Shown here: positions 30,649 through 50,516 of the stretch, piece by piece
How the letters are laid out: every line of letters starts with the position of its first letter
How positions within the stretch are numbered: position 1 is the first letter of the stretch
Source: Martelella lutilitoris
GTDB lineage: Bacteria; Pseudomonadota; Alphaproteobacteria; Rhizobiales; Rhizobiaceae
Length of the DNA stretch: 64,000 bases
Direction: 5' to 3'
Assembly: GCF_005924265.1 (NCBI RefSeq)
Contig: NZ_VCLB01000001.1
Location: forward strand, 310,001 to 374,000
Notes under the pieces: model-generated
Told to the model about the DNA's origin: nothing
Database searches by the model: none
The model's input: only the letters and a program-made list of their open reading frames with translations
Position numbers and translations under genes: made by a program

Positions 30649-31293
30649 ATCATCGACGATGTCGAACACCCGAAACCGCCTGCCGCCGGCGAACTGGTCG
30701 GGGGCGATTGTGTCGGACGCGGCGCATCGATCAATGTCCACGAGTTTAACCCCGACTATCCCGACCTTCGCGGATATTGCGCAAACATGACCGAGAAGAT
30801 CATGGCAAAATAGCCTGAGACAGGCGCGCTGATAAAGACAAGAAGCAGCATTGGGTTGGCTGGTGCCGCTTACGTGACTCGAACACGTGACCCCATCATT
30901 ACGAATTGTTTTTCGTAATTATTTCATACAGTTATATGCTCTACGAAATCGTTGAACCTTACTAGACAAGCCGTTGGCGCGACTCCACTTTCATGGCGTG
31001 AGAGGTAGCACGGCATGTCACCCGGTTGCCACCCCTTTCACCCCGCACCCCTACTACCGAAATACAAATCCTTATCCACCCTACTAATCGCAAACGTGTC
31101 GCCGTTTGTCGGACCTCCCCCTATCAACGGGATTAAGCAATTGGGGAGCGGAGGGGAGCGTGTGGATGGAGGGATGTCACGGCTCGACTGAATTCTGTGC
31201 AATAGCGCGACAGCAGCTTTGGATGCACTGAAGCTGCGAGTTTTCGACAGATGTTGGCGGGCCTTGGCAAGACTGCTTAAGACTGTCAAAGCT
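30649..31293. other. Chromosome-island junction region without clear genes
   Basis: 30649-30860 is chromosomal and may contain a decayed reading frame ending near 30813 (HEFNPDYPDLRGYC), too weak to call. 30861-30906 is the 3' half of tRNA-Thr. 30907-31293 is the A+T-richer first part of the island; it has scattered short frames, a GCAGCTT/AAGCTGC inverted repeat at 31213-31237 and no gene I can support. It would hold the 3' end of the ubiquitin-like operon transcript. Confidence 0.5.
30861..30906 (-). repeat. attL: displaced 3' half of tRNA-Thr(CGT)
   Basis: 46 bp identical to positions 31-76 of the intact tRNA-Thr at 50441-50516, including the encoded CCA. Identity stops exactly at the tRNA end on the left and just after the anticodon loop on the right. 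The last 9 bp (30898-30906) are shared with attR and are the crossover core. Confidence 0.9.
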
Positions 31294-31698
31294 CTAGAAA
31301 CCAATCAGGCCACGCACCCAGTTCCACAGACGAACCCACCACTTCCGTTCGCGCGCACGCTGCGCGTAGAAGGCTTCTCGCCGCTGCTCTTCGGCCGTTC
31401 GACCCGCGGCAATCTGTTCTTCGCTCCACTGTCCCGCCCAGCGTGTTTTGCCCGAAGTGATGAGATAGTGAGAACGGCATGGCAGTTGCCAGTTGCCGAC
31501 AGATGGATGAAGCGTCGGTTGACCATATTGCTCTGTCAAACGCCACTCAGTAGGGCCAAGCGGCGTTGTGACTTTCGAGCCGCATCCGCAGGCGCACAGA
31601 TGCACCGCGATATCGAACTCGTCAGCGACGTAAAGCACACCAGGTTCTAGCGTCTTGGGCACATATTGCACGCGGGCCAAACGGAATTCTTCGATCAT
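31294..31698 (-). CDS. DUF6527 family protein of a ubiquitin-like conjugation operon
   Basis: A 134-aa protein. Paired metal-binding residues are visible in LCACGCGSKVTTPLG and CRSHYLITSGKTRWAGQW, with the intervening PTLHPSVGNWQ. This layout is that of DUF6527, a family I know from operons with a Multi_ubiq-type ubiquitin-like protein and an E2/E1 protein. Its biochemical role is not established to my knowledge; a zinc-dependent maturation or deconjugation step is a reasonable guess. The C-terminus is aromatic and basic (KWWVRLWNWVRGLIGF). Its ATG overlaps the stop of the E1 gene. Last gene of the operon. Confidence 0.75.
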   Translation of the reverse strand: MIEEFRLARVQYVPKTLEPGVLYVADEFDIAVHLCACGCGSKVTTPLGPTEWRLTEQYGQPTLHPSVGNWQLPCRSHYLITSGKTRWAGQWSEEQIAAGRTAEEQRREAFYAQRARERKWWVRLWNWVRGLIGF

Positions 31699-32870
31699 TC
31701 TGGCTCGCCATGAATCTTGATGTCATTCACCTTGAACAACATGTGGTTAAAGTAGTTCTCGTCTAGGTAGAAACCCCTAATCTGTTTGTACCGTAGTACC
31801 GCCAGACAAGCGTTCAAAGCATTCAATTCGGCGATCTGCACGTTGACACGGTATTCATCGTCCTCACGGTCACCTAGCTCCGCGAGATTGCGCTCCAGCA
31901 TGGCTTCGGCATTCGCAGGCTCGTAGTAGGTTGCGCGCAAAGTGCCATTGATCGGACCCTGCTTTCGATCCAGGCCCATACCCACATCGATGAAGGGGAT
32001 GCCCAGCTTGACTAGCAGGTCGAATATTCCGCGCCGCGAACTGCCTTTATCGACGCAGACAAAGGCGAAGGTCACGTCCCTAAAGTCTTCGGCACAAGAT
32101 TCATCCACGAATTTCGGAACCAAGGAGAGTCCTTCGCGGAAGCCTTCATAGCGATTCTGATAAACCTCAGCCTTCGACTGATCGAGCTCGGCTTCGTCTA
32201 GCTTACCGGGCGACCGGAAGGCGTTGTGAACATGGTACAGGTCGCGGTCGAATCCCAGTATTCGCGCAACTGGTGTTTTGACCATGAAATCGAGCACATA
32301 CGCTCCGGTACCGCCAAGTCCGATGAGGGCCACGACTTCATTTTTGAGTTTCGCCGAGAGATCGCCGATTTCAGCCAAGGTTGTTAGGGTGTCCTTGAAT
32401 TTGAACACCGACGTTCCGACGATTGTTTCAACTGCGTTAAACGTCAGCGGGCTAGCACCGTATCGCTCCATCGCAGGTCCACAAAGAATCGTTACATAAC
32501 TTTCGATTTTAGCAAAATGGTCGGCATAACCGCCAGACTGGGGCTTGTTCGAAAACGATCGCTGGACCACTACATCGGGGCTGTCAGGCAACGGAAGCCT
32601 ATGAGGCCCACCCCCGAGATTGGCAACCGGCTTACCATCAAGTCCATGAGGATGCGAGCCCGCGAAGAAGATCTGATGGTTCTTTTGTGTGTAACGCTTG
32701 TTGTCGGGCGATTGCATCTTGCACACGATCGCGCCCCAACAAAGTTCCCCCTTGTCATTGAGATAGGGGATATCACGAACAATCAGGTGATTGCCGTCGA
32801 GCGCGATCGCATAGCCCTTCACCAGGAGCCGGTTGAGGTCTTCGTTATGACTGACCAGTGCGTGAAACAT
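31695..32870 (-). CDS. E2-like/ThiF-type E1 fusion protein
   Basis: A 391-aa protein. Residues 1-145 (HLIVRDIPYLNDKGELCWGAIVCKM, HQIFFAGSHPHGLDG) look like the DUF6791-type E2 domain; residues 165-391 are a ThiF/E1 adenylation domain with ALIGLGGTGAYVLDFMVKT (ATP loop), GFDRDLYHVHNAFRSPG (Asp-x-Asp...Asn-x2-Arg) and FAFVCVDKGSSRRGIFDLLV. The E1 would adenylate the C-terminus of the ubiquitin-like protein encoded just upstream. Only Cys candidates outside the SHPHG segment exist in the E2 part, so a classical cysteine E2 is uncertain. ATG 32870 overlaps the Ubl gene by 26 bases; an upstream ATG at 32906 lies deeper in it. Confidence 0.8.
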   Translation of the reverse strand: MFHALVSHNEDLNRLLVKGYAIALDGNHLIVRDIPYLNDKGELCWGAIVCKMQSPDNKRYTQKNHQIFFAGSHPHGLDGKPVANLGGGPHRLPLPDSPDVVVQRSFSNKPQSGGYADHFAKIESYVTILCGPAMERYGASPLTFNAVETIVGTSVFKFKDTLTTLAEIGDLSAKLKNEVVALIGLGGTGAYVLDFMVKTPVARILGFDRDLYHVHNAFRSPGKLDEAELDQSKAEVYQNRYEGFREGLSLVPKFVDESCAEDFRDVTFAFVCVDKGSSRRGIFDLLVKLGIPFIDVGMGLDRKQGPINGTLRATYYEPANAEAMLERNLAELGDREDDEYRVNVQIAELNALNACLAVLRYKQIRGFYLDENYFNHMLFKVNDIKIHGEPE

Positions 32871-33111
32871 TGAACACCATGCCATCCTTGACCTTGACAG
32901 AACCACCGGGCGATAGCGTGCCCTCCGGCTTATTGCCGTGGCCGCGTTTGTAAGTCACCGAATACGTGGTCTCGGGGTGCTGCGGATACTCAGGGTCCGC
33001 GAGCGTTACCAACTCGACGTAGGTAAGATCACCCTTGTCCACTTCGTACGGTGTACCATCGATCACGATGGTGACCGCCTTACTCTTTTCTTCCTTGTCA
33101 TCGTTTGCCAT
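32845..33111 (-). CDS. Single-domain Multi_ubiq-type ubiquitin-like protein
   Basis: An 88-aa beta-grasp protein. After a charged tail (MANDDKEEKSK), VTIVIDGTPYEVDKGDLTYVELVTLAD and TTYSVTYKRGHGN, then GGSVKVKDGMVFNVSRTGQS, follow the Multi_ubiq pattern. There is one copy of the domain rather than a tandem array. The C-terminus ends TGQS with no Gly-Gly, so either conjugation uses another residue, trimming occurs, or it works differently from ubiquitin. GGAGAAAGAAG precedes the ATG. It sits directly before the E2-E1 gene. Confidence 0.8.
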   Translation of the reverse strand: MANDDKEEKSKAVTIVIDGTPYEVDKGDLTYVELVTLADPEYPQHPETTYSVTYKRGHGNKPEGTLSPGGSVKVKDGMVFNVSRTGQS

Positions 33112-33171
33112 CTTCTTTCTCCATCTGGCGTTTAAGACGGGCGGCAGACGAAGGCCTGCCGCCGGACACTT

Positions 33172-33306
33172 CTACTTCTTGCGATTGGGGCGCTGCGTGA
33201 GAGCTGACGCGGCCGCCGTCTTGGCAGCCTTGCTCGAATTGGGGTTGCGCAGCACTTTCGATGCTGCCGAAGCAGCCTTTGCGCTCGTAACTTCCTTATT
33301 CGCCAT
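33172..33306 (-). CDS. 44-aa Ala/Lys/Ser-rich small protein
   Basis: A small gene read directly from the sequence. The product starts MANKEVTSAKAASAASKVL and ends ALTQRPNRKK; it is rich in Ala, Ser and Lys, with no Cys or aromatic residues. The ribosome-binding site is almost a full complement to the 16S tail (AAGGAGGTGATTC, then CAT before the ATG), which is the best evidence for translation. It lies between the 81-aa gene and the ubiquitin-like gene, in the same operon. I recall similar short proteins in mobile islands but no function. It could be a conjugation target, a nucleic-acid-binding peptide or a regulator. Confidence 0.75.
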   Translation of the reverse strand: MANKEVTSAKAASAASKVLRNPNSSKAAKTAAASALTQRPNRKK

Positions 33307-33355
33307 ATGAATCACCTCCTTTCCTTTTTCCTTGAGGTTGCGCCAAACATCGTCC

Positions 33356-33601
33356 CTACCGCAGGCGACGCTTCACTTCCTCGATCAGGGCGGGTGAGCC
33401 GGCGACCTCGAACGAGAGGTTATCCAGTGACCGTCCGATGACCTTGATCGTCGGTGCCGCACCTGTTTCGGGATCGCGGACGTTCCGCAGTTTATGAGTA
33501 ATCCGGTCCTGCACCTGCTTCATCATCGCTTTCTCCAACTGATTGGCGATATCGTTGGGTCGCACCGACCGCCCATTCAGCTTGAATTCCACCTTCACCA
33601 T
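33356..33601 (-). CDS. 81-aa protein of unknown function, first gene of the Ubl operon
   Basis: A small basic soluble protein beginning MVKVEFKLNGRSVRPNDIANQLEKAMM and ending with an alternating beta/helix stretch (LSFEVAGSPALIEEVKRRLR). GGAGATCGGAA precedes the ATG. The family is unknown to me. It starts the minus-strand operon (81 aa, 44 aa, Ubl, E2-E1, DUF6527) and is divergent from an XRE regulator across 164 bp, which suggests it is part of the same system. Confidence 0.65.
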   Translation of the reverse strand: MVKVEFKLNGRSVRPNDIANQLEKAMMKQVQDRITHKLRNVRDPETGAAPTIKVIGRSLDNLSFEVAGSPALIEEVKRRLR

Positions 33602-33765
33602 TTCCGATCTCCAAATGGTCGCAGTCGGTCATTTGGCCTTGACCTACCGAATCAGGAGTGATTCACTAAGTGTGCCACTGACTGGTACGAACGCTAGCGC
33701 TTTGCGTGATAGCTGTCCAGTCTGTGACACACAAATTCTACTCTAAGGCACACAAGGGGAGAAGT
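33602..33765. promoter_or_regulatory. Divergent promoter region between the Ubl operon and XRE/ImmA genes
   Basis: 164 bp, A+T-richer than the neighbours. It contains a perfect 9-bp dyad TGTGACACA (33723-33731) and inverted GTGTGCC (33670-33676) and GGCACAC (33747-33753) arms. The XRE regulator encoded at its right side probably binds here and controls both directions; this is inferred from position. Confidence 0.45.
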
Positions 33766-34083
33766 ATGAAGATCGAAGACCTTGCTGGTCTCGTGCAGAA
33801 GAAGAAGGGAAGCATGGGTGTCCGAGCTACCGCCGCCGAGATCGGAATCAGCCCTACTACGCTGTCCAGAATTGAGCGCGGTCACGTTCCCGACATGGGT
33901 ACTCTTGAGAAGGTCTGTGCGTGGCTTGAAGAAGATATGGCCAAGTTCACAGGAATCGGCGGTTTGCAGATCGCCTTTAAGAAGAAACAGGCGATATCTC
34001 CCGATACTGCAAAATCACTGGCTGCCTTAATCGAACGGGCCAGCAAGCAGTTTGTCGAGAAAATCGAAGCGGAAGGACATTAG
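33766..34083 (+). CDS. XRE-family regulator paired with ImmA-type peptidase
   Basis: A 105-aa helix-turn-helix protein. MGVRATAAEIGISPTTLSRIERGHVPDMGTLEKVCAWLEED is the Cro/CI-type domain. The C-terminal half is helical and basic (FKKKQAISPDTAKSLAALIERASKQF). ATG 33766 is chosen because AAGGGGAG lies just upstream; an earlier ATG at 33706 would run through the operator region. The next gene begins right after its stop. In pairs of this kind the peptidase cleaves or destabilises the repressor. Confidence 0.85.
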   Translation: MKIEDLAGLVQKKKGSMGVRATAAEIGISPTTLSRIERGHVPDMGTLEKVCAWLEEDMAKFTGIGGLQIAFKKKQAISPDTAKSLAALIERASKQFVEKIEAEGH

Positions 34084-34662
34084 TTGCTGCGTCGGGGGTT
34101 TAAGTCTCAATGCGAGCGTCGATCGGTGGAGATTAGGAAATCTCTCGGCCTTGCTCATGACGAGCCGCTTCATGGTGCCGATCTAGCAGAGCAGTTCGGT
34201 GCTACTGTCTGGAACGAGCGCGATGTCGCTGGACTACCCGCTACAGACCTACACCAGTTGACTGTTGTTGATGGCCTAAGCTGGTCAGCTTTTACCTTGC
34301 GAATTGGCAACCGCCACTTGATTCTGTTCAATTCGTCGCAATCTGCGCCCCGAATAAATAGCGTCATTATGCATGAACTGGCTCACATAGCTCTCGGCCA
34401 TGAACTCCATTCCGCCAGCCTTTCGGAAGATGGCCATTTGATTCCTTCGAATTACAGTCAGGATCAAGAAGATGAAGCGGATTGGCTAGGTGGCACACTC
34501 TTGTTGCCCCGGCCCGCTTTGCTACGCATCCGGCGAGACGGACTAACCGACACTGCCGCCATGAACAAATTCCTGGCCAGCGAGGAAATGCTGAAGTGGC
34601 GCTTTCGGATGACCGGCGTCGACTACCAGCTTGGGTATGGGCGCAGAAGGCGATCGGTTTAG
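34084..34662 (+). CDS. ImmA/IrrE-type metallopeptidase
   Basis: A 192-aa protein with the zinc motif VIMHELAHIALGHE (His-Glu-x2-His) and the downstream metal Glu in EDEADWLGGTLLLP. This is the COG2856 fold. ImmA of ICEBs1 cleaves its partner repressor to derepress the element, and IrrE/PprI acts likewise in Deinococcus. The gene starts with TTG immediately after the XRE stop, so translation is coupled. It probably senses stress and lifts repression of the divergent ubiquitin-like operon (inference). Confidence 0.88.
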   Translation: MLRRGFKSQCERRSVEIRKSLGLAHDEPLHGADLAEQFGATVWNERDVAGLPATDLHQLTVVDGLSWSAFTLRIGNRHLILFNSSQSAPRINSVIMHELAHIALGHELHSASLSEDGHLIPSNYSQDQEDEADWLGGTLLLPRPALLRIRRDGLTDTAAMNKFLASEEMLKWRFRMTGVDYQLGYGRRRRSV

Positions 34663-34680
34663 CGAATACGGCCCAGTCCT

Positions 34681-35613
34681 TCACGCCCCATCATAGCTGC
34701 GGTCCATCATTGGCTTGGCTTTGTCCAGTGTGGCGACGTCGGTGATGATAATTTCAAGATCGCCAGTGCCAAAATGGCCAATGTTGCGCACATCACGGGT
34801 AAAGCCGGGCTCAAGTTCGATGGTGTCCGGATCGACCTTGACGAAAACCTTGAGGTGCCTGATCTGCGGCTTGACCTCGACACATGCAAAGTTCTTCAGG
34901 CGGCGGAAAGCAACGTAGTTGTCGAGGGTCTTCAGCTCGACATCGTCGCCCAGCGCGAGCAGGTACGCCTTTGTCGCCTCGTAGAGGTCGACAAGGTCTT
35001 GGTCGGCGTCCGCGAGGTATTGCGTAACCGTTTTCTGACGAGACCGTGGTCGGGTTGCCGCAGACTCGCCTTGGGCATCGCTACTGACCGGGATTTCGCG
35101 CGCGGGCCGCTCCGATGCTGAGGTCAGCAGTTCGAATAGCAAGAGTTCGTCGCCAAAGCGGCGATAACGAACAAGTGCGATGTTCCGGTTCATCTGATTG
35201 ACCGCATGGGCATCATACTTCGTGAAGTCGCCGGCAATGCAGATCAGGCGCGGGGTGCTCCAATCGACCGCCTTTGCCTGCTCCGCACCGAAGCGCTCCA
35301 GAACAAGCCATTCGAAATCGCGGCGATGATCCATCAGCCAGTCGAGATAGAACAGGCCTTGGTTGATGACGTTCTCGTTGCTGGCCCGTTTGTACTCGAC
35401 GATTACCGGGGAGCCGTTCTCGTCGATGCCGAGCGAATCCATGCGCCCGCCATGCGTTGTTGGAAACTCGGAGGCGAGAAACCGCACACCGAGGAACGCT
35501 TCCATGTTGCGCTCAATAAGGGTCTGAAGCGACTTTTCCAATGCAACCGCGCTGCCGCGCAGTTCGGTGACCGTAGCACTCTCCGTGCGGAAAAGCTTTA
35601 TATCGCTCATCAA
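34681..35613 (-). CDS. PD-(D/E)XK-domain protein with DUF5655 tail
   Basis: A 310-aa protein. The N-terminal half has the nuclease-like core GGRMDSLGIDENGSPVIVEYKRA (Asp, then Glu-x-Lys), similar to NucS-like or type I-associated nucleases. A low-complexity linker follows at about residue 175-205. The C-terminal part (QYLADADQDLVDLYEATKAYLLALG, then YVAFRRLKNFACVEVKPQIRHLKVFVKVDP) is DUF5655. Such proteins are often encoded beside type I restriction genes, as here, where it is the last gene of the hsd operon. It lies 27 bp after the metallopeptidase gene. The role is unknown; it may bind or cut DNA. Confidence 0.75.
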   Translation of the reverse strand: MMSDIKLFRTESATVTELRGSAVALEKSLQTLIERNMEAFLGVRFLASEFPTTHGGRMDSLGIDENGSPVIVEYKRASNENVINQGLFYLDWLMDHRRDFEWLVLERFGAEQAKAVDWSTPRLICIAGDFTKYDAHAVNQMNRNIALVRYRRFGDELLLFELLTSASERPAREIPVSSDAQGESAATRPRSRQKTVTQYLADADQDLVDLYEATKAYLLALGDDVELKTLDNYVAFRRLKNFACVEVKPQIRHLKVFVKVDPDTIELEPGFTRDVRNIGHFGTGDLEIIITDVATLDKAKPMMDRSYDGA

Positions 35614-35639
35614 TCATCTTCCCCGGCTTTGGCGCGACC

Positions 35640-36356
35640 CTATACCATTATTTTCTCAAGACGAAGCTTGCGTCTTTCCCAATCGGGCAGCTTTTGTTCA
35701 AGTAACTCGAAGAAGGCCGGACCATGATTGGGTTCGCGAACATGACAAAGCTCGTGAATGATGACGTAATCTATGCAGTCGATAGGCGCTTCGATCAAAC
35801 GGGTATTGAGCAGCATGTGCGAACCATCCTGAGACATGCTGCCCCATCGTTTCGTCAGCTTGCGCACGGTCAGCCTGGGCGGGTCACCGTATTCCGGAAA
35901 CGCGCGTGAAAGCGACGTCAGACGCTCCAGCAGTCGTTGCCGCGACTGATGCTGGAACCAAGTTGTCAGAAGCTGTTCGGTTCTCTCGGCAGACCGCATC
36001 CCAGGATATTTGACCGCAATTCGGTCGCCTTCGATGGTGACGTCTGATCGCAATGATTGCTCGACCGATAACCTGTATTGCCGTCCTAGATAACGGTGTG
36101 TCTCACCCGGTAGATATCGGCGCGGGGGTGTAATGGGTCGAAATTGCTCGAACGCCCGCCTCGTCCGGAGAATCCACCGGCCACGCTGCCTGAGGCGCTG
36201 ATCGATGTCCGCCACGCTGGCAGAAGCCGGTGCTGCAACCAGTATGCCGCCATCGGGAAAAACAGTGATCGTCAGCGTTTTGCGCGAAGACCGTTTTAGC
36301 GCGTAAGGCAGGATCTGCCCGGCAAGTTCGACGTTGTGCGTGGTAACGTTTGCCAT
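35640..36356 (-). CDS. YgjP-type M48-like metallopeptidase
   Basis: A 238-aa protein with the zinc motif VIIHELCHVREPNHGPAFFELLE (His-Glu-x2-His) and a preceding KRWGSMSQDGSHMLLNTRLI that is the hallmark of the YgjP/WLM-like family. Members are soluble, and in many genomes sit next to hsdR as here (2 bp gap). The family is thought to act on DNA-protein crosslinks or on ubiquitin/SUMO-like signals in related eukaryotic forms, but the bacterial role is not settled. In this island, with a ubiquitin-like operon, its presence is suggestive only. Confidence 0.8.
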   Translation of the reverse strand: MANVTTHNVELAGQILPYALKRSSRKTLTITVFPDGGILVAAPASASVADIDQRLRQRGRWILRTRRAFEQFRPITPPRRYLPGETHRYLGRQYRLSVEQSLRSDVTIEGDRIAVKYPGMRSAERTEQLLTTWFQHQSRQRLLERLTSLSRAFPEYGDPPRLTVRKLTKRWGSMSQDGSHMLLNTRLIEAPIDCIDYVIIHELCHVREPNHGPAFFELLEQKLPDWERRKLRLEKIMV

Positions 36357-36358
36357 GG

Positions 36359-39300
36359 CTAGAATTTCAGCTGTCGGCGGCCGATCACCAGCGCCTTGTC
36401 GATCATCGCATCCATGGCGTCGGCGTCGAGACCGTACAACCCACGTGTGCTTTTGATCTCGTCATAGAGAAAGTCATCCATCGCATTGCGAATTTCGTTC
36501 AGCGTGTCCGGGTCATCCTGCCAGCCGATCTTGCGGTGCTGGCGCATGATCTTGTCAAAGGCGGCTGCGGTTTCTTCAGCGAAGCCCGACGCCTCTTCCG
36601 GTGAGGAAATACCGGCGAAGTCCTCGACAAGGTTGCGATAAATCGAGCTACCCGTTTCGTTTCCTCTCAGCCGATCGGGGACATCCTCGGCCGCATTGCG
36701 GTTGACCACGCCGTTTCGGATATCTTGCACGCGCTGAAAGTAATCCTGCTCGCTCAGGCGACCGGCACGAAACGCCTCGATCGTCTTCCGGATCATCTGC
36801 GAGAAACGCTGATAGAAGACGCGGTCGTCTTCCATTTTCTCTGTGATGGATTTCGATGTGGCGCTGGCAATCGCGTCGGCTTTGGACGCAAGGCTCCCGG
36901 TTTCCTCGAGCACCACCTGGCGAAAACCGGTTTCGTCGAAAATATTGACCGCGGCAACAATGGGCGTGATGCCATCCGTCGTGATGTGTCTGTCGAGCAA
37001 TGCCTTGATTTTTGCATCGAGCTCCTTCGACTTGGCATCGTCGAGCCGGTCGGCAAAACGCCGGGAAACGGCCCGCCGAAGGTTTTCAAACCGCTTGAGG
37101 TCGGCCTTGTAGCCGTCGATCACGCGCTGGCTGGTATCTTGCGAAAAGGACTCGGAAGAAAAGGCCAGCTGCAGCGCTTTTGCGAACTCTCGAAGTCGAT
37201 CATAGAAATCCTGCCGGCGCAGGTCGTCGGCAAGAGAGGCCTCGAAGGCTTCCTGATCGTGCCGGTTCCGGATCGATTTGAAAAGATCGAGGAGAGCCGC
37301 ATGCTTGTCGGGAAGGCTTTCCGTTTGCTTGCGGATGGCATGCAGTGCGTCGGCAACATCGGCCTCGTCATAGCCTTCGAAGGCGGAATATTGCGTCAAC
37401 GCCTTGTCCAGCTCACCCAGGATCCCGGCATAGTCGATGATATGACCGAAATCCTTCTTCTCTCCCGTATCATCTTCGTAAAGCCGGTTGACGCGGGCAA
37501 TGGCCTGCAAAAGGCCATGTTCCTTCAGCTTTCTGGTGAGATAGAGAACGCGGTTGCGCGGGGCATCGAAACCAGTGAGCAGCTTGTCGACGACAATCAG
37601 GATATCCGGTTCGCCGCCATTCTTGAAGCGTTCGATGACAAGCTCTTCATAGCGCTCGACAGAACCGTGATTGGCCTTCACCTGCTTCACGAACCGGTCG
37701 ACTTCGTCGCTCGGCTCTTCGTTGACCTGCTCATAATTGTCCCGGTCGTCGCCGGGTGAAATGACAACTTCGCTGGTGACGTCGCCGAAATTATCGAGCA
37801 GCTTCTTGAGGATCACCGCCGCGCGTCGGCTCTGGGCGACAAGCTGCCCTTTGTACGGGGTCGCCTTCCAGTTCCAGGAAAAGTCCTCGGACACGTCGGC
37901 GGCGATTTCAACCAGATAGGGTTCGGCGCCCAGAACCTCCCGTCCGCGCGAGAATTTCCTCTTGAGTTCAGTAATTTCTTGCGCAGACAGGCCCTTGGTG
38001 TGGCGCTCGAACCAGCGGTCGAGCGACTTCTCATCTACATCGGTTTCCACCAGTCGCCCCTCGTAGAGAAGCGGGACAACAGCCTCGTCCTCGACGGCCT
38101 CGTCAATCCTGTAGGCATGGATCAGGCCGCCGAAGCGGTCAAAGGTCGAGCGTTCCTTCTTCAGCAAGGGTGTGCCCGTGAAGCCGATATAGCAGGCGTT
38201 CGGGAACACCTTGCGCATCTGCCGGTGCAGGCTCTCATCGTCCTTGATGGTCTGGCTGCGGTGGCTTTCGTCAACGAGCAGAAAGACGTCCCTGCTTTGG
38301 TCGATGACCTCGCGGCTGCGCAGGCCGGATTTGAACTTGTGAATGAGGGTGGTGACGATCCCGGCTTTTTCCTCGACAAGATCAAGCAGATGCCGCCCGG
38401 TCGTGGCCTGGCGAACGTCGTGCAGTCTGGTGGCTTTGAAGGTATCGCGGATTTGCCGGTCGAGATCGCGCCGGTCGGTGACCAGAACGATACGGGGATC
38501 CTCGATCAGATTGGCAATCTCCCTGGCCAGCATCACCATCGTCAGCGATTTGCCGGAGCCCTGCGTGTGCCAGATCACGCCGCCCTTGCGGCGCGCGTGG
38601 TCGTCATAGTGCGACAGGCGCAAGAGGGCGGCCTTCACCCCGAAATATTGCTGATAGCGTGCGATCTTCTTGATACCGCCATCGAACAGGGTGTAGGCGC
38701 GGATCAGATCGATCAGGCGCGCCTTGGAAAAGAGCGCAACGAGCGTGATGTCGAGCGGCGTCGGCAGCCGGCCGTCGGCACTGTCCATCAGACCTTCATG
38801 GCGACGGCGGTGCGGCGAGAAGTCGACAAAGATGGCGCTGGCCTCTCCGGGGTCGAGCGGCGCGTTGACGATCTCGCCGATCCGCCGCTCGCTGATTTCC
38901 TTCTCGCGCCATTTCGACCAGAACTGTTTCGGCGTGCCGGGCGTCGCATAGCGCGGATCGGACGGGTTTGCGGCAAGCAGGACCTGGACCGAGGCGAACA
39001 GGCGCGGGACTTCATCCGCGCCCTGATTGCGGATCGTCTGGCTGATGCCCTGATCAGCGCCATCGGCGGATTTCTTCAGTTCGATCACGGCCACCGGAAT
39101 GCCGTTGATGAAAAGCACGATGTCGGGCCGTCGGGTTTCGGCCGAACGGGACCGTTCTACGGGGAACTCCGCCGTCATGTGGAACAGGTTGTTTTCCGGG
39201 TTCTGCCAGTCGATAAAGCCAAGCTGGCGGCTCTTGGTTTCCCCTTCGATGGTGATGGGGATGGCGGTGCCGAGCTGCATCAGATCGGTCGCCGCCTCAT

Positions 39301-39595
39301 TGGCCGCCTGCGCGCCCTTGCTGGTGTCGCCGAGCGCCGCCTGCAGCTTGCCGATCGCCTCCTGAACGGCGGCATCGGTCACCGGCCAGCGCCTGCCGCG
39401 CTGTTCGATCCGGTTGATGGCATGCAGCCGTTCGGCCAGCACATCTTCAAGCAGGGTCGAGGCCAACCGCCCGCGCCGCTCGCCCTCGCAGTCGGCGCGC
39501 GTCTTGTAGCGCCAGCCGAGATTGGCAAGCAGATGCAGGGTCTGCAGCTGCACGCTTCCAGCTTCCGAGGTCGAAAATTGCGGGCTCTCGCTCAT
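36359..39595 (-). CDS. hsdR: Type I restriction enzyme, R subunit
   Basis: A 1078-aa motor-nuclease. The N-terminal PD-(D/E)XK nuclease has RRPDIVLFINGIPVAVIELKKSADG. The helicase follows: GVIWHTQGSGKSLTMVMLAR (Walker A), LLVDESHRSQ (DEAH-like), GFTGTPLL and LLTGFDAPRNRVLYLTRKLKEHGLLQAIARVNR (motifs V-VI). The C-terminal half is helical. It translocates and cuts unmodified DNA as part of the HsdR2M2S1 complex. The start overlaps the hsdS stop (ATGA), and the metallopeptidase begins 2 bp after it. No frameshift or internal stop is seen. Confidence 0.95.
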   Translation of the reverse strand: MSESPQFSTSEAGSVQLQTLHLLANLGWRYKTRADCEGERRGRLASTLLEDVLAERLHAINRIEQRGRRWPVTDAAVQEAIGKLQAALGDTSKGAQAANEAATDLMQLGTAIPITIEGETKSRQLGFIDWQNPENNLFHMTAEFPVERSRSAETRRPDIVLFINGIPVAVIELKKSADGADQGISQTIRNQGADEVPRLFASVQVLLAANPSDPRYATPGTPKQFWSKWREKEISERRIGEIVNAPLDPGEASAIFVDFSPHRRRHEGLMDSADGRLPTPLDITLVALFSKARLIDLIRAYTLFDGGIKKIARYQQYFGVKAALLRLSHYDDHARRKGGVIWHTQGSGKSLTMVMLAREIANLIEDPRIVLVTDRRDLDRQIRDTFKATRLHDVRQATTGRHLLDLVEEKAGIVTTLIHKFKSGLRSREVIDQSRDVFLLVDESHRSQTIKDDESLHRQMRKVFPNACYIGFTGTPLLKKERSTFDRFGGLIHAYRIDEAVEDEAVVPLLYEGRLVETDVDEKSLDRWFERHTKGLSAQEITELKRKFSRGREVLGAEPYLVEIAADVSEDFSWNWKATPYKGQLVAQSRRAAVILKKLLDNFGDVTSEVVISPGDDRDNYEQVNEEPSDEVDRFVKQVKANHGSVERYEELVIERFKNGGEPDILIVVDKLLTGFDAPRNRVLYLTRKLKEHGLLQAIARVNRLYEDDTGEKKDFGHIIDYAGILGELDKALTQYSAFEGYDEADVADALHAIRKQTESLPDKHAALLDLFKSIRNRHDQEAFEASLADDLRRQDFYDRLREFAKALQLAFSSESFSQDTSQRVIDGYKADLKRFENLRRAVSRRFADRLDDAKSKELDAKIKALLDRHITTDGITPIVAAVNIFDETGFRQVVLEETGSLASKADAIASATSKSITEKMEDDRVFYQRFSQMIRKTIEAFRAGRLSEQDYFQRVQDIRNGVVNRNAAEDVPDRLRGNETGSSIYRNLVEDFAGISSPEEASGFAEETAAAFDKIMRQHRKIGWQDDPDTLNEIRNAMDDFLYDEIKSTRGLYGLDADAMDAMIDKALVIGRRQLKF

Positions 39596-40926
39596 CCTGT
39601 CGCCTCCGCGCTCTGGTCCTCCGCCTCAAGAGCGTCGTCAACATCCTGACCGCCAGGCAAAAGCCGGTCGATGCTCTCCGGTACGGGCAAGTCACCGCTT
39701 AAGAGCTTTTGCATCAGGCCGCGTTTTTGACTAGACAGTAGCTCCGCCAGAAGAGTTGATTGGTCGAGATCACGATCTATGAGTTCTAGTTCTTCTATGG
39801 ATTTTTCGGAGTCCGTGAAGAAAAACAGAAAATCTTCAAGCTGCGATGGTGCCAAGTTGCCAATAGCCGATCCCGCGAGCGCTAAGTGAAGTAGTTCGGC
39901 GTATCGCTGAGATTGAAACATCTGATCAAGCAGTCGTACTGATTGGCTATGCTTCGGCCGTACGGTTGCGCAAAAAGCCCCTGCGGCCATTTTTTCAGAT
40001 GGCGTATTCAAGCAGCGGCCAGCTTTGCCGACAAGATGCTTGCTGCCATTCGACATACATACAATGAAGTCGTCTTGCTGAGTCAGCAATCGCTGAGGCA
40101 CTATGTCTTCTATCACATAAGTTGAATCCCCTTGCAGAGTTATCCGTCGTTGCTGCACGTTGCCGGCAGTGAGAATTCTTACGCCACCTTCCGGTGACTT
40201 ATCGATAGTTGGATCATATCCAACTCCACGTATAACTTCTGCGATGTCTGAAATCTTGACCTCTTGAATATCGCCGCCGCTGGTTTGGTCGCCGGAAAGC
40301 CGAAAAATTTGGCGTGAGAGCCAGTTTTTCCGTCGCGCCCTCGTATCAACTAGCTTCTCTGCAATCGCTATCGCCTTGTCCCATTCATCGAGAATGGCGG
40401 CGATGCGGCGCTGTCCGGGGAGCGGAGGCAGGTGAAATTGCCATGTCATCCAGTGTTCGAGATTAAACACCAACTTTTCGACATGGACTCCTATGCTGGA
40501 GTGAAAACAGGTCTGCTGGAAGTAAATGGTGTTCGTCAGGTGTTTCAAGAAATCAATATTCAGCCGGTCGGTCGGCTGAAGCGTTGCATACTCGTTTGAA
40601 ACAACTGCGTTGTCCAAAGAGGAGGGAACTATTCCACAGGCACCATGCGCAATCTGGCGGCGTGAAATTAGGAAATCCCCGCTTTTCGTGAGAAACTGAG
40701 TCTTAGTCTTGATGGACCGCCCTCTGAGCCGTCCGCGCTCAACGATGCCCCCGCGATTCCGCTTCGCTGTAACGAGCTGGTAATGCTTTTCAGCGTCGAG
40801 CCGAACGGGCCGTTCAACCACCTCAAGCAAATCGCCCAAGGCGTAAGTCGTCCATCCATCAGGCTTCGGTCCAAGTCTGGGAATCCCGGCCTGAACGCTT
40901 TTCGGGAAAGCGCGGTGTTCAGACAT
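39592..40926 (-). CDS. hsdS: Type I restriction enzyme, specificity subunit
   Basis: A 444-aa protein. Two target-recognition domains are visible, each with the typical lead-in: DGWTTYALGDLLEVVERPVRL (first) and VKISDIAEVIRGVGYDPT (second), with the conserved region LPPLPGQRRIAAILDEWDKAIAIAEKL between. It sets the bipartite DNA recognition sequence for both methylation and cutting. ATG 40926 overlaps the hsdM stop (ATGTCTGA). The same frame is open upstream in hsdM but codes for a low-complexity Arg/Ser peptide, so this start is preferred. Confidence 0.92.
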   Translation of the reverse strand: MSEHRAFPKSVQAGIPRLGPKPDGWTTYALGDLLEVVERPVRLDAEKHYQLVTAKRNRGGIVERGRLRGRSIKTKTQFLTKSGDFLISRRQIAHGACGIVPSSLDNAVVSNEYATLQPTDRLNIDFLKHLTNTIYFQQTCFHSSIGVHVEKLVFNLEHWMTWQFHLPPLPGQRRIAAILDEWDKAIAIAEKLVDTRARRKNWLSRQIFRLSGDQTSGGDIQEVKISDIAEVIRGVGYDPTIDKSPEGGVRILTAGNVQQRRITLQGDSTYVIEDIVPQRLLTQQDDFIVCMSNGSKHLVGKAGRCLNTPSEKMAAGAFCATVRPKHSQSVRLLDQMFQSQRYAELLHLALAGSAIGNLAPSQLEDFLFFFTDSEKSIEELELIDRDLDQSTLLAELLSSQKRGLMQKLLSGDLPVPESIDRLLPGGQDVDDALEAEDQSAEATG

Positions 40927-42511
40927 CCAACCCAAGCTCCCGCAAATAGCCGTCCATCCGCGCACGGCTTTCGGCCAGTTGCCGCTCCAGATCGATGATT
41001 TCGCGCTGCACGGCGGCGATGTCGATTTCCTCTTCCGGCTCGAAGGTGTCGACATAGCGCGGAATGTTGAGGTTGAAACCGTTCTCCGCGATCTCCGCGC
41101 GCGGCACCGGGCGGGCATAACGCTCGACCGGCTGGCGCTTGCGATAGGCATCGACGATCGTGTCAAGATGGCTATCAAGCAGTTGGTTCTGCTTCTTGCC
41201 CGGATCATAGTCGCGCGCGGCATCGATGAACATCACGTCACCGGCAGCCTCCCGCGCGCCGCCCTTTTCACGGGCACGATCGAAGATGACGATGCAGACC
41301 GGAATACCGGTCGAGGGGAACAATTGCGCCGGCAGGCCGATGACCGCGTCGATCAGGTTTTCCTCGATCATCGATTGCCGGATGCGCCCTTCGGCGCCGC
41401 CGCGAAACAGCACCCCGTGCGGCGCAATGACGCCGATGCGGCCCGAACCCGGGCGCGCGCTCTCAACCATGTGAGAGATGAAGGCGAAGTCGGCGCGCGA
41501 GACCGGTGGAATGCCGCGGAAATAGCGATTATAGGGGTCGATGCGCGGGTCGATCTTGCCATCCGTATCCTCGTCGCGCTGGTCCTTGCCCTTCTTCTTT
41601 TCCTGGCCGCTCCATTTCTTCAGAGAAAACGGCGGATTGGCGACGACGATATCGAAACGCTTCAGCGCATCGCCTTCGAGGTGTTTGGGGCTGTTGAGCG
41701 TATCGCCCCATTCGATCTCGGCGTTGTCGAGCCCGTGCAGGAATAGATTCATGCGCGCGAGCGCGCGCGTGCCGCTGTTCACCTCCTGCCCGAAAAGCTG
41801 GAAATTGCGCATGTCCTGCTCGTTTTGAGCATTCGCCGCCACCTGCTCCGATGCGCGGACCAGAAGTGAGGCCGAGCCACAGGCAGGATCGTATATCCGA
41901 TTGCCGGGCTGGGGATCGACGAGCCGCACCAGAAGCTCGGAAATCTTGCGGGGCGTGAAGAATTCCCCGGCCTTCTTTCCGGCATCCGAGGCGAATTGCG
42001 AAATCAGATAAATGTAGGTTTCGCCGATCACATCCTCGTTGACGCGCGAAGGGCTCATGTTGAGCGCAGGCTTGTTGAAATCCTCAAGCAGGTTCTTCAG
42101 GCGGCGATTGCGGTCCTTGGTTTCACCGAGATTGTATTCGGAATTGAAATCGATGTTGCGAAACACGCCATCAAGCTTCTTCTTGTTGGCGTCCTCGAAT
42201 TTTTCCAGGGCGATATTGATGATCTCGCCGATATTGTCGGCGCTGCGCTGGAGGTGAAGATCATAAAAAGACGTGCCTTCGGGCAGGAAGAATTTTTCGC
42301 GCTCCATACGACGGCGGATGCGTTCATCATCGTCGCCGAAGCGTTTCTTGTACGCATTGAAATGATCCTGCCAGACGTCGGAGACGTATTTCAGGAACAG
42401 CATGGTCAGGATGTAGTCCTTGTACTGTGCGGCATCGACGACGCCCCGGAAGGTGTCGCAGGCCGCCCATGCGGCTGCATTGATATCGTTCTGGCTGATC
42501 TTGTCGTTCAT
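40919..42511 (-). CDS. hsdM: Type I restriction enzyme, M subunit
   Basis: A 530-aa N6-adenine methyltransferase. MNDKISQNDINAAAWAACDTFRGVVDAAQYKDYIL is the canonical HsdM start. GEFFTPRKISELLVRLVDPQP with RIYDPACGSASLLV binds SAM, and VANPPFSLKKW is the NPPF catalytic motif. It modifies host sites to protect them. GGGA lies 8 bases before ATG 42511; ATG 42517 is also possible. The S-like/DUF2188 gene precedes it by 58 bp on the same strand. Confidence 0.94.
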   Translation of the reverse strand: MNDKISQNDINAAAWAACDTFRGVVDAAQYKDYILTMLFLKYVSDVWQDHFNAYKKRFGDDDERIRRRMEREKFFLPEGTSFYDLHLQRSADNIGEIINIALEKFEDANKKKLDGVFRNIDFNSEYNLGETKDRNRRLKNLLEDFNKPALNMSPSRVNEDVIGETYIYLISQFASDAGKKAGEFFTPRKISELLVRLVDPQPGNRIYDPACGSASLLVRASEQVAANAQNEQDMRNFQLFGQEVNSGTRALARMNLFLHGLDNAEIEWGDTLNSPKHLEGDALKRFDIVVANPPFSLKKWSGQEKKKGKDQRDEDTDGKIDPRIDPYNRYFRGIPPVSRADFAFISHMVESARPGSGRIGVIAPHGVLFRGGAEGRIRQSMIEENLIDAVIGLPAQLFPSTGIPVCIVIFDRAREKGGAREAAGDVMFIDAARDYDPGKKQNQLLDSHLDTIVDAYRKRQPVERYARPVPRAEIAENGFNLNIPRYVDTFEPEEEIDIAAVQREIIDLERQLAESRARMDGYLRELGLDV

Positions 42512-42569
42512 TCTCATTTTCCCATGAATGGAGGGGCAGGCGAACCTGCCCACTCCCGGTGCTGCGGCT

Positions 42570-42818
42570 TTAGCCCTTGACGTCGCGCGGGTCGTTGCCG
42601 TGGCTGTCCGACTGAGCGATCCTGCCATCCTGATTATGGATTTTCAGTTCGCTCTGAGCGTTGCGGCTGATCTCGCGCGCGCGATCGACAGCCTGCTGCT
42701 TGGTGTCGAAATGTCCGGACGCGCGGCTTGCGCCGCCACGCTTCACATTCCAACCGCCGTCCTTTGCAGGAACGACATGGGTGGTTCCGCCCTTGCCGGG
42801 CGACTTCTTATTGCTCAT
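42570..42818 (-). CDS. DUF2188 small protein, possible independent product
   Basis: An 82-aa DUF2188 domain: THVVPAKDGGWNVKRGGASRASGHFDTKQQAVDRAREISRNAQSEL, then HNQDGRIAQSDSHGNDPRDVKG. The family is widespread, often single-domain and of unknown function. It has its own ribosome-binding site (AGAAGGAAAT, about 8 bases before ATG 42818), so it can be translated alone although the longer upstream frame is open without a stop. It lies between the S-like gene and hsdM. Confidence 0.7.
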   Translation of the reverse strand: MSNKKSPGKGGTTHVVPAKDGGWNVKRGGASRASGHFDTKQQAVDRAREISRNAQSELKIHNQDGRIAQSDSHGNDPRDVKG

Positions 42819-43478
42819 AATACGATTTCCTTCTTCAAAGGGAGGATTAGCCAGACGCTCCCGAGCAAGGTTTGTCTGGCGGTGAATTGCCCATGCTGGA
42901 TTGCCGTCCGGCATGGGCTGCCCCTCCGCCGAACGGCGGAGGATTTCGTCGGTCAGGCGATTGCGCGCCTCACCAAGTTTCTCGTTCAGATGTGTTTGAT
43001 GTCGTCGCTCATAATCGAGCGCGACCATGCGTTCCTGCACCTGAATAGAGGGTATCGGAATTTCGAGCTCGGCGAGCGCTCCAAGCCCCAGGCGCGGGAT
43101 CGTTGCAGTGCTGCGCATCATGGCCAGCGCGCTTTGTGTGGTCGGCAAGTTCAGGAAAAGCGCGAGATAGGCAGGCAGAACACGCGCGCTCGACAAGCGG
43201 ACAATCGCGATGTCAAGTATGGCAAACAAGGGAGAATCAATGGTTTCGACGGGAGCCGCCCAGTTAACCGTTCCCCTCGTATCGACGAGCACATCGCCTG
43301 ACCGCAACTGGGCTTCCGCGAAACTGCGAACGGGCGGAGCACCAAACGCAAAGTCTCCGGGGACGATATACCCACCACGCAGATGTCGCCCTTGCACGAA
43401 CGGAACGCCACCGTCGTCGGCTTTGAAGGTCGTGCCGTTGCGAATAGCAGCGATTTCGTGTAGCAGTGCTTTTGTCAT
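42570..43478 (-). CDS. Truncated HsdS-like domain fused in frame to DUF2188
   Basis: A 302-aa open frame. Residues 1-190 look like one target-recognition half of a type I S subunit (TTFKADDGGVPFVQGRHLRGG, RSGDVLVDTRGTVNWAAPVE, then IPRLGLGALAELEIPIPSIQVQERMVAL). Full S subunits have two halves; here the second is missing and the frame runs on through about 30 residues into DUF2188 without a stop. Either the fusion is real, or the S-like gene lost its end and the DUF2188 gene starts internally at 42818. It starts the hsd operon; a dyad lies just before its ATG. Confidence 0.6.
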   Translation of the reverse strand: MTKALLHEIAAIRNGTTFKADDGGVPFVQGRHLRGGYIVPGDFAFGAPPVRSFAEAQLRSGDVLVDTRGTVNWAAPVETIDSPLFAILDIAIVRLSSARVLPAYLALFLNLPTTQSALAMMRSTATIPRLGLGALAELEIPIPSIQVQERMVALDYERRHQTHLNEKLGEARNRLTDEILRRSAEGQPMPDGNPAWAIHRQTNLARERLANPPFEEGNRIMSNKKSPGKGGTTHVVPAKDGGWNVKRGGASRASGHFDTKQQAVDRAREISRNAQSELKIHNQDGRIAQSDSHGNDPRDVKG

Positions 43479-43487
43479 TTCAAAATC

Positions 43488-43504
43488 ATAGTAACAGATA
43501 CTAT
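43488..43504. promoter_or_regulatory. Inverted repeat ATAGTA-acaga-TACTAT before the hsd operon
   Basis: Perfect 6-bp arms with a 5-bp spacer, 10-26 bp before the start of the S-like gene. The region between it and the integrase is A+T-rich. This is a possible operator controlling restriction gene expression. No control protein is adjacent. Confidence 0.4.
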
Positions 43505-43707
43505 GGGAAAATCAAGAAAGTTCTTCTTGCCACGTTGGGCTAAACTGAAACAGGCGATTCCGATTTTCGTCCGCTCGCGCGTGCGCAGGCGTTGGATGGC
43601 GTTTCATCGTCTTTCCCGTCAATAGAATCGTCTTCATAACTATTTGATATTGCTTGTATTTTCAAGAGAATTGCGTTACCTTAAGTTGAGGCCAGAAGGA
43701 GGTCTCA

Positions 43708-44874
43708 ATGCCAAGTTTACGTTTCACCCGCCGTGCGATTGACGAACTTCCTCACGCCGAGAGCGGGCAGGTTTTCTATCGCGATACGCTGCTGACCGGC
43801 TTCGGTCTGCGTGTCGGCACCCAATCTAAGGGCTATTATGCCGAGGGGCAGGTGAACCGGAAGACGCGGCGCGTCACCATCGGGCGGGCGGATGTCTTCG
43901 CGCCCAAAGTCGCCCGCAAGAAGGCGCTGGCGCTGCTGGGCGAAATGGCCGAGGGGCAGGATCCCAACGCCGAGAAGAAGCGGGAAGTCGTGGCGCGGGT
44001 CACGCTGGCCGATGCGTTCGACAGTTTCTTTGCCGCGCGTCCCCATCTTTCCAGGCACACGGTCGACAACTACACCCGCTCGGCCCGGCTCTATCTGAAA
44101 TCCTGGCGCAGGAAGCCGATTAACGAAATCACCCGACAGATGGTGCTGAAGCGCCATCAGGAGCTTTCGGCGGAAGTGGGCAAGACGACCGCGAACAATG
44201 TGTTCCGGCATTTCCGGTCGGTCTATAATTTCGCCGCCGCAACGCATGACGCGCTTCCGCCCAACCCGGCACAGATATTGACGCAGGCGCGGGCATGGCA
44301 TCGTGAGCAGCGTCGGCAGACGCTCGTTTCGGCGCAGGATTTGCCGAACTGGTGGAAGGCGGTCCATGCGGAGCCGGTACATTCCCGCGACTTTCTTTTG
44401 ACGGCGCTCTTTACCGGAATGCGCCGGGGTGAGCTGATGGCGCTGCGCTGGGAGAATGTGGACCTTGTCGCGAAGACGCTGCATCTGCCCAAGACGAAGA
44501 ATGGCGATCCGCTGACCCTGCCGCTCTCCACCTTCCTGTTCGACCTCCTCTCCGAACGCCGCAAACGGTCGAATGGCTCGCCCTTCGTGTTTCCGGGGCC
44601 GGGCAAGGACGGGCATCTTATCGAGACGAAGAAGTTCCTTCAGCGCGTCAGCGCCGGTGCCGGGGTCAGCTTCACGCTTCACGACCTTCGCCGCACCTTC
44701 ATCACCATCGCGGAGAGCCTGGACGTTCCTTATTACGCGCTCAAGCGACTGCTGAACCACCGCGCCACGGGCGATGTGACGGGCGGATACATCGTCGTCA
44801 ATGCCGAGCGCTTGCGCGGGCCGGTGGAACAGGTCGCACAACGGATATTGGAGCTGGTCGATGCCGCGGACTGA
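43708..44874 (+). CDS. Tyrosine integrase of the island
   Basis: A 388-aa site-specific recombinase. The N-terminal arm-binding domain (TGFGLRVGTQSKGYYAEGQVNRKTRRVTIGRA) and the SAM-like core-binding domain (ADAFDSFFAARPHLSRHTVDNYTRSARLYLKSW) precede the catalytic domain: Arg in FTGMRRGELMALRWENVD, His-x2-Arg in LHDLRRTFITIA, the His in LLNHRATGDVTGGYIVV and the final Tyr in the same segment. GAAGGAGG precedes the ATG. It lies 6-13 kb from the two att sites, unlike the usual att-proximal location. Its stop overlaps the next gene. Confidence 0.92.
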   Translation: MPSLRFTRRAIDELPHAESGQVFYRDTLLTGFGLRVGTQSKGYYAEGQVNRKTRRVTIGRADVFAPKVARKKALALLGEMAEGQDPNAEKKREVVARVTLADAFDSFFAARPHLSRHTVDNYTRSARLYLKSWRRKPINEITRQMVLKRHQELSAEVGKTTANNVFRHFRSVYNFAAATHDALPPNPAQILTQARAWHREQRRQTLVSAQDLPNWWKAVHAEPVHSRDFLLTALFTGMRRGELMALRWENVDLVAKTLHLPKTKNGDPLTLPLSTFLFDLLSERRKRSNGSPFVFPGPGKDGHLIETKKFLQRVSAGAGVSFTLHDLRRTFITIAESLDVPYYALKRLLNHRATGDVTGGYIVVNAERLRGPVEQVAQRILELVDAAD

Positions 44875-49142: not shown

Positions 49143-49148
49143 AGGGCA

Positions 49149-50440: not shown

Positions 50441-50516
50441 TGGTGCCGCTTACGTGACTCGAACACGTGACCCCATCATTACGAATGATGTGCTCTACCA
50501 ACTGAGCTAAAGCGGC
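50441..50516 (-). tRNA. tRNA-Thr(CGT)
   Basis: A complete 76-nt cloverleaf on the minus strand with encoded CCA: acceptor GCCGCTT pairs with AAGCGGC, D-arm AGCTCAGTTGGTAGAGC-type, anticodon stem ATCAT/ATGAT with loop TTCGTAA (anticodon CGT at 34-36), and a T-arm with GTTCGAGTC. It reads ACG threonine codons. Positions 1-39 repeat at 50614-50652 and positions 31-76 at 30861-30906. It lies inside the island, so it probably replaces the split host gene. Confidence 0.95.

Follow-up and report, generated by a model that had tools for sequence, protein, structure and literature searches.

A serine-ended ubiquitin-like operon of the DUF6791 subtype, sister to Bub, on a genomic island of Martelella lutilitoris

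To our knowledge, the ubiquitin-like protein (Ubl) tags known to be conjugated to proteins are activated at a C-terminal glycine, often after trimming by a protease, and are handed on through enzyme cysteines. Bil and the Cap2 protein of type II CBASS (cyclic oligonucleotide-based anti-phage signalling system) share conjugation logic with the operon described here, and the Bub system uses oxyester intermediates. The operon lies in a 64,000-nucleotide (nt) stretch of Martelella lutilitoris DNA (assembly GCF_005924265.1, contig NZ_VCLB01000001.1, positions 310,001 to 374,000), which we call the window and number from its first letter. It is the DUF6791 subtype of the polyUbl operons (Iyer type 6e, an operon type in print since 2006), sister to Bub. 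The passages of Iyer 2006 (PMC1779556) on type 6e list a polyUbl, an inactive protein resembling a ubiquitin-conjugating enzyme (E2) or RWD domain, a ubiquitin-activating enzyme (E1) fused to a JAB domain, and a metal-binding protein; in some operons the E1 is fused to a 'domain X' instead of JAB, and a solo Ubl is recorded for one species. With these the window operon shares a Ubl of the tandem-Ub (mlr6139) family, an E1-like protein in which a distinct N-terminal domain replaces JAB, and a mobile distribution. We infer that domain X is DUF6791. Metal-binding protein Y of the same passages is probably DUF6527; the motif printed there is C-x3-C...H-x2-C, and DUF6527 has C35-x3-C39 and C74-x2-H77, with the last pair reversed. 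The inactive E2-like protein, listed there as separate or fused to polyUbl, has no counterpart in the window operon, and the DUF6791 half may stand in for it.

The operon is read from the reverse strand in the 5' to 3' order p81, p44, Ubl, DUF6791-ThiF, DUF6527, and comprises the following features (aa, amino acids):
31294..31698, minus strand: DUF6527 protein, 134 aa (Pfam, 1.7e-24)
31695..32870, minus strand: DUF6791-ThiF (PRK06153) protein, 391 aa from the ATG at 32870, DUF6791 being its N-terminal and the E1/ThiF adenylation domain its C-terminal part (Pfam DUF6791, 9.6e-40, and ThiF, 1.1e-10)
32845..32870, minus strand: 26-nt overlap of the Ubl 3' end with the DUF6791-ThiF 5' end, read in two coding frames
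32845..33111, minus strand: single beta-grasp Ubl of 88 aa, ending in TGQS (Pfam Multi_ubiq, PF14452, 5.4e-17)
33172..33306, minus strand: p44, a basic 44-aa protein (PHROG 5079) with a strong Shine-Dalgarno sequence
33356..33601, minus strand: p81, an 81-aa protein; some TIR-domain proteins have a homologous N-terminal region

An earlier reading made from the letters alone (the sequence-only reading) had proposed five genes on one strand with coupled starts at two junctions. All five open reading frames (ORFs) were found at the place and strand given, and the couplings are the 26-nt overlap between the Ubl and E1 genes and a 4-nt overlap (ATGA) between those for DUF6791-ThiF and DUF6527. Its single Multi_ubiq-type Ubl is borne out by the Pfam match and by a solved relative (9cd2). 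The ORF list holds a longer, GTG-start form of DUF6791-ThiF reaching 32906, and the NCBIfam model PRK06153 matches this protein type. Shine-Dalgarno-like sequences precede each of p81, p44 and Ubl, that of p44 being GGAAAGGAGGTGAT; a promoter and terminator scan gave one of each, not above shuffled sequences.

A species-genome collection was searched with DUF6791-ThiF, and the best 80 of 88 relatives, together with the window's own locus (L001), make up the 81 loci used below. The 80 lean to close relatives (53-75% identity over the best segment), since peptide patterns taken from the window protein served to find them. DUF6791-ThiF directly follows the Ubl in all 81 loci, and DUF6527 comes next in 80; since this three-gene core recurs so regularly, the operon is of a known kind. 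The relatives' loci span Alphaproteobacteria, Bacteroidetes, Bacillota, Actinobacteria, Planctomycetota and others, and DUF6791-ThiF was also found in 116 of 72,556 plasmid records. In an even draw of 249 genomes from the phylum, DUF6791 occurred in five and DUF6527 in nine, all five being among the nine. The subtype is widespread but little studied. No open-licence paper naming DUF6527 or DUF6791 was found, in searches that did not target the tail or the small-gene slot described below. The alignment used for DUF6791-ThiF residues (A4, 67 rows) holds 65 of the 80 loci, the window and a viral-contig locus, L082; left out were L025 (a stop in its translation), L076 and L080 (partial) and 12 more, dropped by eye to shrink the set, with redundancy not computed. 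Alignment A2 holds 68 of the 80 loci, A1 and A3 hold 28, A5 has 31 loci plus the window and L082, and A6 has 24 with the same two additions; the match in L081 has a length that three does not divide. Two loci hold an additional match. A second, partial DUF6791-ThiF-like ORF (L019:2501-3193, 230 aa, 4e-32) lies about 2.8 kb upstream of the intact one, and the viral contig carries a second Ubl-like match (L082:7510-7737, minus strand, 2.2e-11) on the opposite strand behind the operon.

The Bub system has been solved for Citrobacter as BubCD-BubB-BubA (9ea4, 9ea5, 9ea8, 9eae, 9eav) and has in common with the window operon a Multi_ubiq Ubl, an E1 with an invariant tyrosine, DUF6527 and helix-turn-helix (HTH)/ImmA regulators. 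For comparison we used 13 fetched Bub-type plasmid stretches, in which Multi_ubiq comes with an E2, separate or fused to the Ubl, and a ThiF protein. DUF6527 is annotated in ten of them and present without annotation in L119, with none annotated in L121 and L123. By Pfam, Prok-JAB scores above its cut-off in three of the four Bub-type ThiF proteins tested and below it in the fourth, and Prok-E2_E was found in both of the E2 proteins tested. The window operon instead has DUF6791 in place of Prok-JAB and Prok-E2_E (PF14462), and its Ubl has a T-x-x-S tail. Pfam finds no Prok-JAB in the window DUF6791-ThiF protein; in the M. lutilitoris genome as a whole Multi_ubiq matched once and Prok-E2_E not at all, and the better of two Prok-JAB matches reached 22.2 bits, short of the cut-off of 25. 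The Bub operon of R. phaseoli carries DUF2188 in the same upstream slot as DUF6791-type loci. The multi-ubiquitin domain protein ZDHYS365 (9cd2) matches the Ubl with its C-terminal beta-grasp domain (1.4e-6; 2e-16 with the family profile), and its chain ends in TDKS. It is 222 residues long and matches only at 144-222, whereas the window Ubl has a single domain. With Bil and type II CBASS Cap2 the operon has an E1-type domain in common (PADLOC E1-E2, 2.2e-5) and differs in having no conserved E2 cysteine, JAB or cyclase. The sequence-only reading is supported in that this is a Ubl-conjugation-type operon, but the nearest relatives are Bub operons and not Bil. Its suggestion of a distinct subtype, with two small partners and an XRE/ImmA switch, survives in part. 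The operon is distinct from solved Bub in its DUF6791 domain and tail, but the subtype is widespread and the small genes do not define it (among the 81 loci the 44-aa family occurs in six and the 81-aa family in the window's own locus only).

The predicted model of DUF6791-ThiF (pLDDT, the predicted local distance difference test score, 87.2) gave its best fold matches to solved Citrobacter BubCD and its complexes (9eae, 3.6e-13; 9eav), followed by PaaA, ThiF, MccB and UBA5; by sequence, the best PDB matches were TcdA and ThiF. In the DUF6791 half the model runs H2-8, H10-18, E20-25, E28-37, E43-53, E66-70, E104-107 and H118-137, an order that by eye fits a UBC/RWD fold, so that any E2 nature of this half rests on predicted topology. 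The 'E2-E1 fusion' of the sequence-only reading is accordingly clear for the ThiF half, but for DUF6791 finds only this helix-strand order. Searched against the PDB by sequence, the DUF6791 half returned two chance-level matches (0.34 and 0.78). Relaxed Pfam searches of 33 members found DUF6791 in all, UvrA_inter in seven (best 0.012) and, in a single member apiece, six other families led by DpaA_N (0.00045) and CDC48_2 (0.0037), all disregarded as not shared. Homology to the Bub Prok-E2_E domain was rejected after hhalign against 13 E2_E-type proteins (0.4% probability, P 0.13, over 29 N-terminal columns). A degenerate JAB was likewise rejected: MAFFT sets the window SHP under the JAB HSHP, but the His is kept in 31 of 81 rows and there is no invariant pattern like that of JAB ligands.

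The SHPHG segment has no cysteine, as had been noted from the sequence, and no cysteine column of the DUF6791 half exceeds 17 rows among the 67 aligned proteins. Residue 83, placed by eye under the UBC catalytic cysteine, is Pro in 37, Ala in 12, Arg in 5 and other residues in the rest. Present in all 67 rows are His65, Ser107, Lys121, Tyr125, Tyr340 and Tyr368, together with the nucleotide-loop glycines, Asp208 and Asp274. The most conserved cysteines are C272 (66 of 67) and C355 (38 of 67). C272 is unlikely to be catalytic, since Ala takes its place in L082 and Ser in L087 (a Runella protein), and since its counterpart in ThiF is the Cys of the CTDN motif; on the same grounds it was rejected as a nucleophile common to the whole family. 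The proposal of an unusual, non-thioester chemistry is plausible in this light, no cysteine being kept in all relatives. Across 19 proteins (11 JAB-E1 and 8 DUF6791-ThiF) the Tyr340 column is the only invariant Tyr column, and it corresponds to residue 373 in C. koseri and, by count, to residue 370 in Leclercia. PDB titles of solved Bub constructs name Y370F and D104A, and Asp104 (C. koseri numbering) is invariant in the JAB parts. By alignment and count, the E1 tyrosine of BubCD position 370 thus appears to be present as Y340.

The Ubl does end in TGQS without Gly-Gly, as had been claimed. In a tail set of 86 loci (the 81 plus L082 and L085-L088) the ends are TGQS in 75, TGES, TSQS and TSES in two each, and TGQA, SGQS, TNRS, TIQS and TDKS in one each. 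T-x-x-S closes the protein in 84 of them, with the stop codon immediately after the tail; the terminal Ser is kept in 85, and the most distant tails (TIQS, TDKS, TNRS) retain Thr and Ser only. Because the bases of the tail also encode the start of the next gene, selection on that gene might by itself account for the conserved tail. The amino acids of the downstream frame were therefore held fixed, and the expectation was taken from codon use of the same gene. At the wobble base behind the Ubl Thr, 85 of 86 loci have A (26.9 expected), and at the one behind the Ubl Ser, 85 have T (23.5 expected). This codon use in the overlap indicates selection on the tail Thr and Ser. Seven tails (of the TSQS, TSES, TIQS, TDKS and TNRS forms) have no Gly third from the end. 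Among 12 Bub-type Ubls, two end in Gly, four have Gly two to three residues before the end and six run from Gly into the E2; in Leclercia the BubA part stops before the E2 part at Gly229, the last residue of solved BubA(155-229). We favour, with moderate odds, activation of the encoded end (Ser88), on account of the seven tails without Gly, the terminal Ser kept almost throughout, the constrained tail and the operon's lack of a JAB.

The DUF6527 model has a pLDDT of 93.6 and a C-terminal helix at 93-132. H33, C35, C37, C39, P65, S66, C74 and H77 are present in all 69 DUF6527 rows, and C35, P65, S66 and H77 in all of a 12-row wider set of phage and Bub members, a pattern that fits a metal site or a catalytic site alike. 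The last 14 residues contain Trp in 67 of the 69 rows, and in 59 they combine a net charge of at least +3 with at least one Trp. This helix is absent from the two phage and four Bub forms aligned. Nothing credible was returned from the PDB by sequence or by fold; a fold search of viral models matched one of them strongly (A0A8E7FZU2, 1e-11). DUF6527 is encoded in three phage records out of 50,697, and no phage record matches DUF6791-ThiF. Two phage cores (L127:2471-2740 and L128:2495-2779), without the C-terminal helix, are 44-45% identical to the window protein; a role of such cores in counter-defence is possible.

p44 and p81 are real, exchangeable small genes, as judged from sequence comparison. 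For p44, eight comparisons gave ratios of nonsynonymous to synonymous substitution rates (dN/dS) from 0.04 (L036) to 0.20 (L031), which are rough, as dS exceeds 1.5 in five of the eight; for p81 the one comparison, with a relative in genome G604, gave dN 0.11, dS 1.21 and dN/dS 0.09. The two small genes singled out from the sequence as unexplained are in this sense genuine. Neither has a Pfam match below 0.1, p44 matches PHROG 5079 at 1.3e-13, and a tblastn search for p44 in phages found no match. Across the loci we define a slot for genes on the operon's strand whose ends lie 0.2-1.0 kb ahead of the Ubl stop codon (80 of the 81 have at least 1 kb upstream). It is filled in 26 of 81 loci, by DUF2188 in 18, p44 in six, a YjzC-like gene in two and p81 in one (the window, alongside p44); outside it the same loci hold one further match of the small families, a DUF2188. 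p44 occupies the slot on two plasmids too. It is because this slot recurs that the small genes may be partners of the Ubl system. In the 13 kb of G604 that were read, p81 and p44 are adjacent and there is no Ubl operon. Members of the p44 family were found in ten of 289 genomes of the class, the nine others having no Ubl gene in their 3.1-kb loci; one of the nine has a CapH-like gene nearby, and two of the matches contain a stop. p81 relatives were found in two of 150 genomes of the order (the window's own included) and in seven of 72,556 plasmid records, four of them annotated as TIR proteins. On a Methylorubrum plasmid (L133:2998-4239) a p81-like domain precedes a TIR domain in the same protein, and two more genes with TIR domains lie next to it.

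Divergent from the Ubl operon is a pair of genes for an HTH protein and an M78 peptidase:
33670..33732: inverted repeat between the HTH gene and the operon, in their divergent promoter region, whose 16-nt arms (33670-33685 and 33717-33732) are 88% complementary; a candidate operator
33766..34083, plus strand: CapH-like HTH (XRE) regulator, listed from GTG 33706, with ATG 33766 after GGGGAGAAGT
34084..34662, plus strand: CapP-like ImmA/M78 peptidase with HELAH (PADLOC capP, 7.4e-8)

What had been called an XRE/ImmA switch indeed resembles the CapH and CapP regulators known beside Bub operons, 219 of 544 of which adjoin CapW or CapH+CapP according to PMC13373217 (EMBO J 2026), the paper in which the name Bub is used. 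The shared features are an XRE HTH protein and an M78 peptidase with HELAH upstream of the operon; the window pair differs in being divergent. Within 3.2 kb upstream, a CapP-like gene was found in 60 of the 81 loci, a CapH-like gene in 43 and either in 65. These counts include remote HTH and M78 genes, since the profiles were extended from the window proteins in successive rounds, and locus L001 ends before its CapP-like gene, which is therefore not counted.

Taken together, we see about an even chance that this is a stress-induced Ubl conjugation operon, the DUF6791 subtype of type 6e and sister to Bub, on a mobile island. By analogy with the published CapH+CapP family, the CapH-like repressor would keep the operon off until the CapP-like peptidase cleaves it upon DNA damage. 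The ThiF half, going by its fold, would adenylate the C-terminal carboxylate of the Ubl, most likely at Ser88, with trimming to Gly86 as the alternative. As no cysteine is kept in all relatives, transfer would bypass any cysteine of DUF6791-ThiF, the hydroxyl of Tyr340 or Ser107, or direct attack on the adenylate, being likelier routes. DUF6791 could serve as an E2/RWD-like platform. DUF6527 might select or release targets, its basic, Trp-rich helix perhaps placing it at the membrane, and the small upstream genes may encode interchangeable partners or substrates. The outcome would be tagging under phage or DNA-damage stress. Several observations weigh against this picture. The E2 nature of DUF6791 finds no sequence support in the PDB, hhalign or relaxed Pfam searches, DUF6527 has no credible PDB fold match, and C272, which all but one of the 67 rows share, could be important in most members. 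Related loci count as independent in the tail test, and constraint is also seen at the wobble bases for the two middle residues (G in 80 and C in 80 of 86). In 79 of the 86 tails the third residue from the end is Gly, as it is in three of the 12 Bub-type Ubls (L101, L120, L123). The slot holds none of the small families in 55 of 81 loci, and PMC13373217 states that protection against phage has not been shown for Bub operons.

Other explanations read the same genes differently. A metabolic sulfur-carrier system, in which a ThiS/MoaD-like Ubl is thiocarboxylated by a ThiF-type enzyme, would account for the ThiF/MoeB-type fold and the TcdA and ThiF sequence matches, but sits poorly with a Ubl that has no C-terminal Gly-Gly, with the best fold match being BubCD and with a mobile island bearing CapH/CapP-like regulators; no sulfur or cofactor enzyme was found among the nine proteins scanned (31294-36356), and we consider it very improbable. 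The Ubl might instead be adenylated and never conjugated to protein, DUF6791 being a dead E2/RWD domain that binds it and the product a Ubl assembly or an MccB-like nucleotide-peptide. The missing conserved cysteine of the DUF6791 half, the appearance of MccB among the fold matches and the 'inactive' label given to the E2 of this operon type in the type 6e passages of Iyer 2006 (PMC1779556) all agree with such a role. It is distinctly unlikely, given the constrained extreme C-terminus of the Ubl and the nucleotide-loop glycines, Asp208, Asp274 and Tyr340 invariant in 67 rows. Ordinary thioester chemistry could run through C272 or, with DUF6527 as a HECT-like ubiquitin ligase (E3), through Cys35, which together with Ser66 and His77 is kept in every DUF6527 row of both sets. 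C272, however, is the CTDN-motif cysteine by alignment and is replaced in two relatives, and DUF6527 also shows a metal-site pattern (H33, C35, C37, C39, C74), which makes this route quite unlikely.

Two further alternatives concern the tag's end and the small genes. A peptidase, of the host or unknown, may cut the Ubl behind Gly86 and so leave a glycine for conjugation, as in other Ubls; the Gly third from the end in most tails and in three Bub-type Ubls would allow this. Against trimming stand the seven tails without that Gly, the kept and codon-constrained terminal Ser, and the absence of JAB from the operon and, over the cut-off, from the genome; we hold it to be unlikely. p81 and p44, for their part, could be a separate mobile cassette that landed before the operon and has no part in it. 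Their adjacency in G604 apart from a Ubl operon and the nine genomes of 289 with the 44-aa family away from Ubl genes speak for this, but all six p44 and 18 of 19 DUF2188 matches in the 81 loci sit in the slot upstream of the Ubl, as p44 also does on two plasmids, and the cassette is possible though doubtful. The conjugation reading can be taken further, to an unprocessed tag joined through its C-terminal Ser with no enzyme cysteine, the slot proteins (PHROG 5079, the TIR-associated domain of p81, DUF2188) acting as substrates or targeting factors and the tail-less phage DUF6527 possibly as counter-defence; as a whole this remains tentative and rather unlikely. The large subtype itself is encoded with a serine end, has no JAB protease in its operon and no enzyme cysteine common to all relatives. 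This brings the minimum chemistry of Ubl conjugation within reach of tests on a core of three genes and about 1.8 kb, and the recurring small-gene slot offers a first lead to the targets of such operons.

The operon lies beside attL on an island of 19.6 kb (30861-50516), bracketed by a perfect pair of 46-bp repeats:
30861..30906: attL, a 46-bp direct repeat with the sequence of the tRNA-Thr 3' part
43708..44874, plus strand: tyrosine integrase of the island
50441..50516, minus strand: tRNA-Thr(CGT) with attR (50441-50486), the far island edge

Its cargo includes a type I restriction-like cluster at 36359-43478 (S identified by Pfam, R and M by eye), a YgjP peptidase and a PDC-S18 gene (PADLOC, 2.2e-147). 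This is a mobile, defence-type setting and is circumstantial for operon function; the link to defence drawn in the sequence-only reading is one of context only. One ORF of the cluster (42573-43478, minus strand) joins an HsdS-like N-terminal part, below the Pfam cut-off, to a DUF2188 C-terminal part (234-293), which is the genome's only DUF2188 match. Just outside the island, a second partial copy (50605-50652, 48 nt, 94%) of the 5' part of tRNA-Thr was perhaps left by an earlier integration.

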